The notes beneath the pieces are model-generated. The model did not search any database. It saw only the letters and a program-made list of their open reading frames with translations, and was not told the DNA's origin. Both the position numbers and the translations under genes were made by a program. This document shows positions 40,457 through 43,978 of a stretch of 64,000 nt of DNA, in pieces (position 1 is the first letter of the stretch; the number at the start of each line of letters is the position of its first letter). Source of the DNA: Arthrobacter sp. ISL-72 (lineage in GTDB: Bacteria; Actinomycetota; Actinomycetes; Actinomycetales; Micrococcaceae); the NCBI RefSeq assembly GCF_018613755.1, contig NZ_JAGGPP010000004.1, positions 1 to 64,000 of the forward strand, given 5' to 3'.

Positions 40457-42235
40457 GTGAGTGAATTGCACACGCACCAACTGCTGACTGACGACACCGG
40501 CACGGAAACGATCGAGCCGGAAGAGACCATCATCTCGGACGAAAAACCGCACGAGATCGCGGAGAAGTCCTTCGCCGACTACAACGTCCGCGCGGACATC
40601 GTGGAATCGCTGGCCGATGCCGGGATCACCCACCCCTTCCCCATCCAGGCGATGACACTGCCCGTGGCCCTCAGCGGCCACGACATCATCGGCCAGGCCA
40701 AGACCGGTACCGGCAAGACCCTCGGCTTCGGCATTCCCGCCCTGCAGCGCGTGGTGGGCCGGGGCGATGCGGGCTTCGAGAAGCTGGCAGTCCCCGGCGC
40801 CCCGCAGGCGCTGGTCATTGTGCCGACCCGCGAACTCGCAGTCCAGGTGGCCAAGGACCTGGAAAACGCCTCCCGGAAGCGCAACGCCCGCATTGCCACC
40901 ATCTACGGCGGCCGCGCCTACGAGCCGCAGGTGGAAGCCCTGCAGAAGGGCGTCGAAGTGGTGGTTGGCACGCCCGGCCGCCTGATCGACCTCTACAAGC
41001 AGCGGCACCTGAGCCTGAAGAACGTCAAGATCGTGGTCCTCGACGAGGCCGACGAAATGCTGGACCTCGGCTTCCTGCCCGACGTTGAGACGCTCATTGC
41101 CGGCACGCCCCCGGTCCGCCAGACGCTCCTGTTCTCGGCCACCATGCCTGGTCCGGTCATCGCGATGGCCCGCCGCTACATGACCCAGCCCACGCACATC
41201 CGTGCTGCCGATCCGGACGACGAGGGCCTCACCAAGCGGGACATCCGCCAGCTGATCTACCGAGCCCACAGCATGGACAAGATTGAAGTGGTGGCCCGCA
41301 TCCTGCAGTCCCGCGGCCGCGGCCGCACCATCATCTTCACCAAGACCAAGCGCACCGCCGCGAAGGTTGCCGAGGAACTCGTGGACCGCGGGTTCGCCGC
41401 GGCCGCCATCCACGGAGACCTCGGCCAGGGCGCCCGCGAGCAGGCCCTGCGTGCCTTCCGCAACAACAAGGTCGACGTCCTGGTGGCCACCGACGTCGCG
41501 GCACGCGGCATCGACGTCGACGACGTCACGCACGTCATCAACTACCAGTGCGTGGAAGACGAAAAGATCTACCTGCACCGCGTGGGCCGCACCGGCCGCG
41601 CCGGCAACAAGGGCACCGCCGTGACCTTCGTCGACTGGGACGACATGCCCCGCTGGGGCCTGATTAACAAGGCACTGGGGCTCAGCGTTCCCGAGCCGGT
41701 GGAGACGTACTCGTCCTCGCCGCACCTCTTCGAGGAACTGGACATCCCCGAAGGCACCAAGGGCCGCCTGCCCCGCGACAAGCGCGTTCTGGCCGGCGTG
41801 GACGCCGAGGTGCTTGAGGACCTCGGCGAGACCGGCAAGAAGACTGGGCGTGGCAGCGCAAGGGACGACGGGCGTGACAGCGGGCGTGACAGCGCCCGCG
41901 GCGCAGGCACCGGCGGCGGGCGTTCCGGCGGCCGTACTTCCCGCCGCAGCGACTCCGCTGGCAGCCGCGAGGGCGGCAATCGCGAGGGCGCACGCTCCAG
42001 CGAGGGTGCCCGCTCCGGTGAGCGCCGCCGTCGTACTTCCGACAGCAGCGCAGCAGCCGCTCCGTCCGCCGAGGCAGCCCCCGCGGCCGCAGCATTTTCC
42101 GCACCGGCCGAGGCCGCGGTTGACCGGGCCACCCGTGCCCGCCGCCGTACCCGCACGCGCCGGCGCAACGGCGAGGTAGTGGGCGGCGGCAGCGCGGCGC
42201 AGGACGGCTCGCAGCCGGGCAACGCCGAGGCCTAA
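40457..42235 (+). CDS. DEAD-box RNA helicase
   Basis: This encodes 592 residues with a complete helicase core: Q motif region (HPFPIQAMTLPVALSGHDII), motif I AKTGTGKTLGF, GG and PTRELAVQVA, VVLDEADEMLDLGFLP (DEAD), LLFSATMPG (SAT), ATDVAARGIDVDDVTHVINY, and HRVGRTGRAGNKG. Residues after about 430 form a disordered Arg/Gly/Ser/Ala-rich tail ending in RARRRTRTRRRNGEVVGGGS, typical RNA-binding extensions of actinobacterial RhlE/CsdA-like helicases. Roles are ribosome assembly and cold-stress RNA remodelling. The long leader suggests post-transcriptional control. The methyltransferase gene begins 8 bp later. Confidence 0.92.
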   Translation: MSELHTHQLLTDDTGTETIEPEETIISDEKPHEIAEKSFADYNVRADIVESLADAGITHPFPIQAMTLPVALSGHDIIGQAKTGTGKTLGFGIPALQRVVGRGDAGFEKLAVPGAPQALVIVPTRELAVQVAKDLENASRKRNARIATIYGGRAYEPQVEALQKGVEVVVGTPGRLIDLYKQRHLSLKNVKIVVLDEADEMLDLGFLPDVETLIAGTPPVRQTLLFSATMPGPVIAMARRYMTQPTHIRAADPDDEGLTKRDIRQLIYRAHSMDKIEVVARILQSRGRGRTIIFTKTKRTAAKVAEELVDRGFAAAAIHGDLGQGAREQALRAFRNNKVDVLVATDVAARGIDVDDVTHVINYQCVEDEKIYLHRVGRTGRAGNKGTAVTFVDWDDMPRWGLINKALGLSVPEPVETYSSSPHLFEELDIPEGTKGRLPRDKRVLAGVDAEVLEDLGETGKKTGRGSARDDGRDSGRDSARGAGTGGGRSGGRTSRRSDSAGSREGGNREGARSSEGARSGERRRRTSDSSAAAAPSAEAAPAAAAFSAPAEAAVDRATRARRRTRTRRRNGEVVGGGSAAQDGSQPGNAEA

Positions 42236-42243
42236 ACCCCTCA

Positions 42244-43116
42244 ATGACTGACACCGTCTGGGCGCCGGACGGCAGCAACCTGGTGGTACACGCGGACAAC
42301 GCCGAGTACCTCCCCACGCTGCCGGACGGCGCCTTCACACTCATCTACGTCGACCCGCCCTTCAACACGGGCCGCGCCCAAAGCCGCCAGCAAACCACCA
42401 TGGTGCGCAACGCGGAGGGCGGCGGGGACCGGGTCGGTTTCAAGGGGCGCTCCTACGACACGATCAAGGGCGCCCTGCACAGCTATGACGACGCGTTCAG
42501 CGATTACTGGTCCTTCCTGGAACCCAGGCTCGTGGAGGCATGGCGGCTGCTGGCTGAAGACGGCACGCTGTACCTGCACCTGGACTACAGGGAAGTGCAC
42601 TACGCCAAGGTGATGCTGGACGCCATCTTCGGCCGCGAATGCTTCCTGAACGAAATCATCTGGGCCTACGACTACGGCGCCCGCGCCAAGTTCCGCTGGC
42701 CCACCAAGCACGACAACATCCTGGTGTACGTCAAGAATCCGGCCAGGTACCACTTCGACAACGCCGAGGTGGACCGGGAACCGTACATGGCGCCCGGCCT
42801 GGTCACCCCGGAAAAGAGGGAACTCGGCAAACTGCCCACGGACGTCTGGTGGCACACCATCGTCTCCCCCACCGGCAAGGAGAAGACCGGCTATCCGACG
42901 CAGAAGCCGGAGGGCCTGATCCGCCGCGTGGTGGCCGCCTCAAGCCGGCCGGGCGACTGGTGCCTGGACTTCTTCGCCGGCTCGGGCACCCTCGGGGCCG
43001 TGGCCGCCAAGCTGGGCCGCAAATTCGTCTGCGTGGACCAGAACCAGCCCGCCATCGACGTCATGACGAAGCGGCTCGGCACGAAGGCGTCCTTCATCGC
43101 CCATCCGCCCAACTAG
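42244..43116 (+). CDS. Solitary DNA methyltransferase (beta class)
   Basis: This encodes 290 residues. The motif order is catalytic DPPF first (LIYVDPPFNTGRAQSRQQTT, residues about 35-55), target recognition in the middle (KFRWPTKHDNILVYVKNPAR), SAM-binding FxGxG last (WCLDFFAGSGTLGAVAAKLG), which defines a beta-class N6-adenine or N4-cytosine enzyme. GYPTQKPEGLIRRVVAASS (motif X) is also present. No restriction endonuclease or specificity gene is nearby, so it is an orphan enzyme like CcrM. It lies 8 bp after the helicase and is probably co-transcribed, a linkage I believe is conserved in the family. The recognition sequence is unknown. Confidence 0.85.
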   Translation: MTDTVWAPDGSNLVVHADNAEYLPTLPDGAFTLIYVDPPFNTGRAQSRQQTTMVRNAEGGGDRVGFKGRSYDTIKGALHSYDDAFSDYWSFLEPRLVEAWRLLAEDGTLYLHLDYREVHYAKVMLDAIFGRECFLNEIIWAYDYGARAKFRWPTKHDNILVYVKNPARYHFDNAEVDREPYMAPGLVTPEKRELGKLPTDVWWHTIVSPTGKEKTGYPTQKPEGLIRRVVAASSRPGDWCLDFFAGSGTLGAVAAKLGRKFVCVDQNQPAIDVMTKRLGTKASFIAHPPN

Positions 43117-43129
43117 GTAGCAGCAGGTG

Positions 43130-43978
43130 TCAGGGGCGGACGACGGCGGTGCCCGTGCCCAGTTCCTCGATCCGTGCCAGGACTTCGGGCGAGGTGAGGT
43201 TCTCGCCCAGCAGGTTCGGCTTGCCGGTGCCGTGGTAGTCGGAGGAGCCCGTCACCAGCAGGCCATGCTCTTCGGCGAGCGCACGGAGGTAGTCCCGGCC
43301 GTCCTCCGGATTGTCGCGGTGCTCGATCTCCAGGCCAACCAGTCCGGCGTCGATCATTTCCAGATAGGTCCGCCTGCCCACTATCCGGCCGCGGGCGGAT
43401 GCCACGGGATGGGCGAACACGGGTACGCCTCCCGCCGCCCGGACCAAGGCCACTGCGACGGCGGGATCGGGGGCGTAGTGCTGGATGTAGTAGCGGGACT
43501 GTGAGGTCAGGATCGAGCTGAAGGCCTCGGTCCGGTCCGCCACCACCCCGGCGGCCACCAGGGCATCGGCGATGTGCGGGCGGCCCAGGGTTGCGCCCGG
43601 TGCCACGTGGTGGATGACGTCGTCCCAAGTCAGCGGGTAGTCCTCGGCCAGGAGGGTGACCATGCGTTCCGCCCGGGTCAGGCGGGCGTCCTTGGCCTTC
43701 GTGATCTCCTCCAGCAGGCCCGCATGCGCCGGGTCGTGCAGGTAACTGAGCAGGTGCACGCTGATGCCCTCCGCCGTCCGGCAGGAAATCTCCATGCCCG
43801 GCACCAGGGCAACCCCCTTCGCGCGGGCAGCGTCAGAGGCTTCCGCCCAGCCGTCGGTGGAATCGTGGTCGGTCAGGGCCACCACGTCCAGGCCTGCCGC
43901 CGCCGCGGCCGCCATCACCTCCGCCGGCGTCTCCGTTCCGTCGGAAACATTCGAGTGCGCATGCAGATCAATCCTCAC
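43130..43978 (-). CDS. PHP-domain phosphoesterase (RNase AM/YciV-like)
   Basis: This 282-residue protein has the polymerase-and-histidinol-phosphatase fold: MRIDLHAHSNVSDGTETPAE (metal-binding HxH), GLDVVALTDHDSTDGWAEAS (TDHD), GVALVPGMEISC (Glu), ADALVAAGVVADRTEAFSSI, GGVPVFAHPVASARGR (His), and GSSDYHGTGKPNLLGEN (SDxH). The family includes Rnm, a 5'-3' exonuclease that matures 5S and 23S rRNA and removes 3'-phosphate from pAp. It is convergent with the methyltransferase gene (13 bp apart) and divergent from aminopeptidase P. Confidence 0.88.
   Translation of the reverse strand: MRIDLHAHSNVSDGTETPAEVMAAAAAAGLDVVALTDHDSTDGWAEASDAARAKGVALVPGMEISCRTAEGISVHLLSYLHDPAHAGLLEEITKAKDARLTRAERMVTLLAEDYPLTWDDVIHHVAPGATLGRPHIADALVAAGVVADRTEAFSSILTSQSRYYIQHYAPDPAVAVALVRAAGGVPVFAHPVASARGRIVGRRTYLEMIDAGLVGLEIEHRDNPEDGRDYLRALAEEHGLLVTGSSDYHGTGKPNLLGENLTSPEVLARIEELGTGTAVVRP

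Follow-up and report, generated by a model that had tools for sequence, protein, structure and literature searches.

An orphan beta-class DNA methyltransferase of Arthrobacter with predicted TTAA specificity and a probable role at the replication origin

What does a solitary DNA methyltransferase do in Arthrobacter sp. ISL-72, where its gene lies directly behind that of an RNA helicase? For the window, that is, the whole stretch of 64,000 nucleotides that was analysed, the sequence-only reading had favoured an epigenetic or cell-cycle role over defence. The occurrence of the gene throughout its own genus (25/25 genomes) and in most of its family (273/295), together with an enrichment of TTAA at the origin which is tied to the gene, supports that view. 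We think that the enzyme probably writes N6-methyladenine at TTAA and that its principal conserved function lies at oriC, in methylation-gated initiation of replication. The finding bears on the question of replication timing in the Gram-positive bacteria of this group, for which no SeqA is known. The features concerned are the following.

42244–43116, + strand: orphan beta-class DNA methyltransferase, predicted TTA(m6A)A specificity (profile matches, TTAA association, PMC4752239)
42352–42363, + strand: catalytic motif IV, DPPF, residues 37–40 (read from the translation)
42973–42987, + strand: SAM-binding motif I, FAGSG, residues 244–248 (read from the translation)
40457–42235, + strand: DEAD-box RNA helicase (PF00270, PF00271) adjoining the methylase upstream, a conserved neighbour in Micrococcaceae
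42236–42243, + strand: intergenic gap of 8 bp from helicase stop to methylase ATG (from the coordinates; the median over 130 helicase-linked loci is also 8 bp)
43130–43978, − strand: PHP-domain protein, convergent downstream neighbour (nucleoside bisphosphate phosphatase-like, below cut-off)

The methyltransferase ORF begins with ATG, is intact and specifies 290 aa. In it motif IV (DPPF) comes before motif I (FxGxG), the order which defines the beta class of amino-methyltransferases, and the earlier assignment to that class is confirmed by the position of both motifs and by a near full-length match to Pfam N6_N4_Mtase [PF01555, 4.9e-44]. The PADLOC MTase_II model [PDLC03300, 8.5e-175] covers residues 1–284. 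The fold family is clear from the sequence; among natural proteins with solved structures the top-scoring in a sequence search were M.RsrI and CcrM, with M.RsrI in first place [3.1e-24]. M.RsrI is the methylase of a GAATTC restriction-modification system, and differs in having a cognate nuclease and a site other than TTAA. CcrM of the alphaproteobacteria, matched by HMMER, is an orphan enzyme of the beta class which methylates adenine at N6 and acts in the cell cycle. It differs in its target, GANTC rather than TTAA, and with 83.5 bits against a cut-off of 830 our protein scores far too low for the NCBIfam CcrM equivalog model. By Pfam the five neighbouring genes specify the helicase, an RNB nuclease, the PHP-domain protein, an aminopeptidase P and an MgtE_N/CBS/PRC protein. 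A restriction enzyme, that is, the linked endonuclease of a type II restriction-modification system, is absent from these five, in agreement with the original description of the gene as solitary.

The target site had been called unknown, which is out of date. In the study of Blow et al. (2016, PMC4752239), TTA-m6A-A was mapped in two Arthrobacter species and assigned to an orphan enzyme present in 39/42 genomes of the genus; in plots of 500-bp windows, TTAA clustered between dnaA and dnaN in correlation with the presence of the enzyme. TTAA m6A in Arthrobacter sp. U41 has been assigned to M.AspU41I (PMC5356067). TTAA is also listed as a methylated motif for Microbacteriaceae in a marine study (PMC9516812), and TTAA m6A for Chloroflexi genomes in another report (PMC6329791). 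The methylase at 42244–43116 can almost certainly be equated with the conserved orphan TTA-m6A-A enzyme described in Arthrobacter by Blow et al.; this identity rests on conservation and on the origin TTAA test. Both share conservation at the genus level (39/42 there, 25/25 here) and a clustering of TTAA between dnaA and dnaN which correlates with the gene; as regards orphan status, no restriction gene was found here among the five neighbours scanned. TTAA m6A activity being published for the Arthrobacter orphan family, the present protein would be expected to have the same specificity. As far as can be tested, it adds one more member to a published family for which the target and the link with the origin have already been sketched. 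Beyond Blow et al., the present analysis contributes the spread over two families, the helicase linkage, the base-level architecture of the origin with the placement of TTAA in a predicted unwinding module, the gene-loss contrasts and the counterexamples.

The gene was found in all the genomes of its own genus, that of the window included, so that the absence from close relatives which would have told against an epigenetic or cell-cycle role was not encountered, and the 273 positive Micrococcaceae genomes (threshold E 1e-30) represent 31/32 genera. A class-wide draw (E 1e-15) gave a match in 27/296 genomes and 11/114 genera. A second family, f17, possesses it in 177/199 genomes and 81/85 genera (E 1e-60). 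From the naming of contigs which match the methylase at 67–74% identity, 19 of the 26 named ones being Microbacteriaceae, we take f17 to be that family. Streamlined f17 genomes of 0.9–1.4 Mb retain the gene. Of the named relatives, the nearest carry the labels Arthrobacter, Pseudarthrobacter and Paenarthrobacter. In 50,697 phage and 72,556 plasmid records every match was below 60% identity, and a mobile or defence origin was rejected on this ground. The methylase is dispensable in genus g28, since all 11 sampled members are without it. No remnants were seen in 21 gene-lacking genomes tested at E 0.001; seven of these hold only remoter methylases (25–47% identity), all but one piece of which lie in frames of more than 500 aa.

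The helicase (best NCBIfam match CshA, 404.8 bits, under the model cut-off of 646) ends at 42235 and the methylase ATG stands at 42244, the 8-bp spacing being as first read. The conservation of the pair in Micrococcaceae, which had been proposed as a check, was found in 130 of 140 loci, some genomes being counted twice; over these 130 the gap has a median of 8 bp and quartiles of 8–11, and lies within −30 to 60 bp in 127. Among the ten loci without an upstream helicase, L171 and L209 are cut by contig ends. Five others (L220, L224, L255, L259 and L261, of which L224 and L261 are identical) carry a copy that has diverged to about 70% identity, with no adjoining helicase, and form in the tree one clade separate from the main Arthrobacter clade; here the native methylase was perhaps swapped for an outside gene. 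Two of these five loci are from named Arthrobacter, and the L220 copy is close to a MutT-like ORF and a large helicase-like ORF, as read from the translations. No helicase lies within 1.5 kb at L268, L269 and L271. Beyond the family none was found beside the methylase in 55 loci with flanks of 1.5–6 kb, and the helicase is retained in 12/12 tested genomes which lack the methylase. In nine of these 12 the PHP gene comes 0.30–0.63 kb past the aligned helicase core, which leaves no space for a methylase. The tie between the two genes is therefore real in Micrococcaceae and local to them. Because it is seen only in this family and the helicase persists without the methylase, the helicase would seem to be no more than a co-transcription partner, and a partnership with it as a general function is rejected.

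The dnaA–dnaN gap of the same genome (contig C20, outside the window) contains eight TTAA in 537 bp, or 14.9 per kb versus 0.40 per kb in its flanks; a Markov-1 model predicts a mean of 1.80, and eight or more were reached in 9/20,000 simulations. The cluster described for the published family is thus present. The gap was also taken from 80 family genomes, being all 22 without the methylase and 58 of the 273 with it, the latter chosen so that the mixed genera were represented and most other genera had at least one genome in the set; 20 additional own-genus origins were kept out of these counts. With the methylase the mean was 2.76 TTAA and at least two were present in 44/58 gaps, versus 0.77 and 2/22 without it. 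Both exceptions are assemblies 82 and 71% complete (G104 and G204), and when they are dropped the values for the gene-lacking group become 0.30 and 0/20. Four methylase-lacking genomes have TTAA counts like those of their relatives, and every one of them is only 71–87% complete.

When all strand-collapsed 4-mers were ranked by their ability to separate the two Micrococcaceae groups, TTAA came first (AUC 0.959, or 0.882 with G104 and G204 included), followed by GTTA (0.914) and CTTA (0.909), both of which overlap it. Among 6-mers pieces of the DnaA box also separate the groups (for example TATCCA, AUC 0.869); since words other than TTAA do so, the gene-lacking origins differ more widely. In f17, TTAA again ranked first (AUC 0.800) with genomes less than 95% complete excluded, and second after ACAC (AUC 0.760) with these included. 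From this family 17 of the 22 gene-lacking genomes were used (G713 and G768 gave no dnaN, G725 lies at a contig end and two unlisted genomes were omitted) and 36 of the 177 gene-bearing ones, these being siblings of the gene-lacking, small genomes and others (37 were taken and G520, with dnaA cut, was dropped); G709, G420 and G663, also gene-bearing, were searched for dnaN and left out of the gap set.

Corrected for dinucleotide composition, the observed to expected ratio of TTAA was 160/62.0 = 2.58 in the 58 Micrococcaceae with the methylase and 6/6.5 = 0.92 in 20 without, and 108/53.5 = 2.02 in the 36 f17 genomes with it and 22/24.6 = 0.89 in 15 without. For these ratios and for the DnaA-box counts below, G104, G204, G726 and G758 (the last two 77 and 87% complete) were omitted from the gene-lacking group. 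The control word AATT gave 0.90–0.96 in all four groups. Since kinship inflates such counts, the fairest contrast, a small one, is that within the eight genera which include both states: TTAA was higher with the methylase in seven, tied in one and lower in none (one-sided sign test, p 0.008); ATTG separates these genera as well as TTAA does, and AATT splits 4:3:1. Genus g20, Kocuria-like to judge by the tree, has two or three TTAA in 17/17 genomes with the methylase and one in 6/6 without. The latter six have lost different single sites, the proximal in G157 and G286 and the distal in G073, G171, G251 and G279. The 300 bp upstream of dnaA show no enrichment with the methylase (observed/expected 15/21.1 and 24/23.5), and an enrichment in the dnaA promoter is rejected; in E. 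coli GATC is enriched in that promoter. From dnaN onward the ratios were 0.42 and 0.56 with the methylase versus 0.71 and 0.96 without, which may reflect composition.

The architecture of the origin is conserved at the level of single bases. In 21 own-genus origins eight TTAA sites are in register, each kept in 20 or 21. Invariant columns make up 28/32 of those in TTAA, 37/45 in DnaA boxes and 81/173 of the others, and random sets of eight windows were equally conserved in 13/20,000 draws; row conservation of 4-mers is 98.2% for TTAA, 82.9% for other AT-only words and 70.3% for all windows. The eight sites of our genome are interleaved with DnaA boxes, and three of them are arranged in tandem as 9-bp units. 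With one genome per genus, 9 bp is the commonest distance between TTAA sites within 45 bp (13/54 genera); between successive sites in all genomes, 16 bp (18 cases) is narrowly ahead of 9 bp (16 cases). The last site reads TTATCCACA-G-TTTCCACA-GCAG-TTA[TTAA]CACTACTAA, that is, tandem DnaA boxes, a short spacer and trio-like trinucleotides, a reading which is imperfect in that the third unit (ACA) departs from the pattern. DnaA-trios belong to the basal unwinding system described in PMC8287927.

Double DnaA boxes were found in 57/58 Micrococcaceae origins with and 18/20 without the methylase, and in 28/36 and 10/15 of those of f17; the site picked out in G048, G051, G215, G634 and the two g224 genomes is unlikely to be the real module. 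A TTAA no more than 40 nt behind the tandem boxes is present in 53/57 gene-bearing versus 6/18 gene-lacking Micrococcaceae (Fisher p 9e-7, ignoring kinship) and in 26/28 versus 2/10 in f17 (p 4e-5, likewise), or 79/85 versus 8/28 of the origins with boxes when both families are pooled. By genus the values are 24/25 versus 1/4 and 23/24 versus 2/7. In some gene-bearing origins (g45, g35 and part of g26) the junction itself lacks TTAA, and one follows some 10–20 nt beyond it. Junctions in methylase-lacking genomes are often trio-like without TTAA (TTACTAACA, CTACCACCA, TTATGAACA), and owners of the methylase mostly have TTATTAACA. One might tentatively propose that in the two actinobacterial families TTAA sits at or just past the junction of DnaA box and DnaA-trio so that the methylation state of the strand captured by DnaA directly gates unwinding; we regard this as possible and somewhat doubtful. 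If true it would provide a reader-free, DnaA-intrinsic alternative to sequestration by SeqA. Among the literature matches listed, from a search outside which most subscription papers lie, none reports TTAA methylation in a DnaA-trio region.

Since TTAA sites are packed at the origin and tend to dwindle where the enzyme has been lost, the methylase probably helps to control replication rather than having an antiviral function. The gene, its distribution, the architecture of its sites and their co-variation with it are observations made here, and the likeliest role would be a Dam-like gating of initiation without SeqA. Replication would leave the TTAA sites of the origin hemimethylated, which would delay re-initiation: DnaA might load and open the strands differently at the trio region, or a putative protein preferring hemimethylated TTAA might be recruited. 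The delay would end once the methylase had restored full methylation. The timing of hemimethylation, the effect on DnaA and the reader protein are presumed in this scheme. Dam belongs to a methylase class different from that of the beta-class enzyme. The Dam/SeqA/GATC system of gammaproteobacteria resembles ours in that its m6A site, a short palindrome, is over-represented in oriC, where it is interleaved with DnaA sites, according to a review (PMC4285127) which confines seqA homologues to some Gram-negative bacteria. It differs in its site, GATC rather than TTAA, and in that TTAA lies here in a DnaA-trio-like stretch. As expected of a Dam/SeqA-type system, oriC is enriched in the methylation sites in step with the presence of the methylase, families f28 and f45 excepted. 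The loss of the methylase within several genera, together with defined sites in the unwinding module, makes the replication suggestion of 2016 directly testable.

Could the methylase act mainly on gene expression instead, methylation and regulators opposing each other at promoter TTAA to give heritable on/off states, with the origin cluster secondary? In favour of this, Blow et al. (PMC4752239) describe for Arthrobacter conserved TTAA that are unmethylated upstream of PadR and ArsR regulators, and TTAA clusters in front of the genes for urease and peptidase M60. We consider this reading rather unlikely, and a point against it, a weak one, is that enrichment and co-loss occur in the dnaA–dnaN gap and not in the 300 bp upstream of dnaA. 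More improbable still would be that the clusters simply reflect AT-rich origin DNA and lineage, and are methylated without consequence. Some AT-rich genomes without the methylase are indeed TTAA-rich (genus g159, with 2–9 in the gap and AATT equally common), the genomes are related and their counts thus not independent, and origins without the methylase differ in other words too. Against this, the composition-corrected excess of TTAA is found only with the methylase while AATT remains flat, 7/8 mixed genera go in the expected direction and none in the other, and the enzyme is broken in two of the three genomes, out of 58 gene-bearing ones, that have no TTAA in the gap.

MseI, which cuts TTAA, is known from a Micrococcus species, and PADLOC places the protein among type II methyltransferases; we might then be dealing with the relic or active half of an MseI-like restriction-modification system kept for protection. 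This appears very improbable, as no such nuclease is found among the five neighbours, the phage and plasmid matches are all below 60% identity, and Blow et al. (PMC4752239) regard the TTAA enzyme of Arthrobacter as an orphan and hold near-universal presence to be typical of orphan, not restriction-linked, methylases. An RNA methyltransferase acting with the helicase on ribosomes would account for the close spacing (8 bp here, −30 to 60 bp in 127/130 linked loci) and is scarcely credible, because the best matches are DNA methylases, the published activity of the family is on TTAA in DNA, and the examined flanks of 55 loci from other families contain no helicase; an RNA methylase identity thus finds no support.

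Methylation-gated initiation has its own exceptions. Families f28 and f45 have a methylase 66–73% identical to ours and no TTAA in the gap in 6/6 genomes (L335–L340). In four of these gaps a DnaA box of the TTNTCCACA kind is absent by pattern, and two have a near-tandem pair. Lacking TTAA there, the role of the methylase in these families must differ or lie elsewhere. Three of the 58 gene-bearing Micrococcaceae genomes lack TTAA in the gap. In G049 a stop precedes motif I, and in G052 there is a frameshift near residue 171 (a 130-contig draft, possibly a sequencing error), while G106, with an intact methylase, is a true exception; intactness was read for 30 genomes and for the listed rows of the family survey. 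The streamlined G631, which has the methylase, shows no clear TTAA excess, its gap being 29% GC with 4 TTAA and 6 AATT.

In the 64-kb window itself TTAA occurs 20 times versus 54 for AATT. The gap of our own genome (L083) contains twice, at positions 27 and 245, the TTAA-containing 9-mer TTATTAACA, two mismatches from a DnaA box, and these copies flank the TTAA cluster, one at either end.
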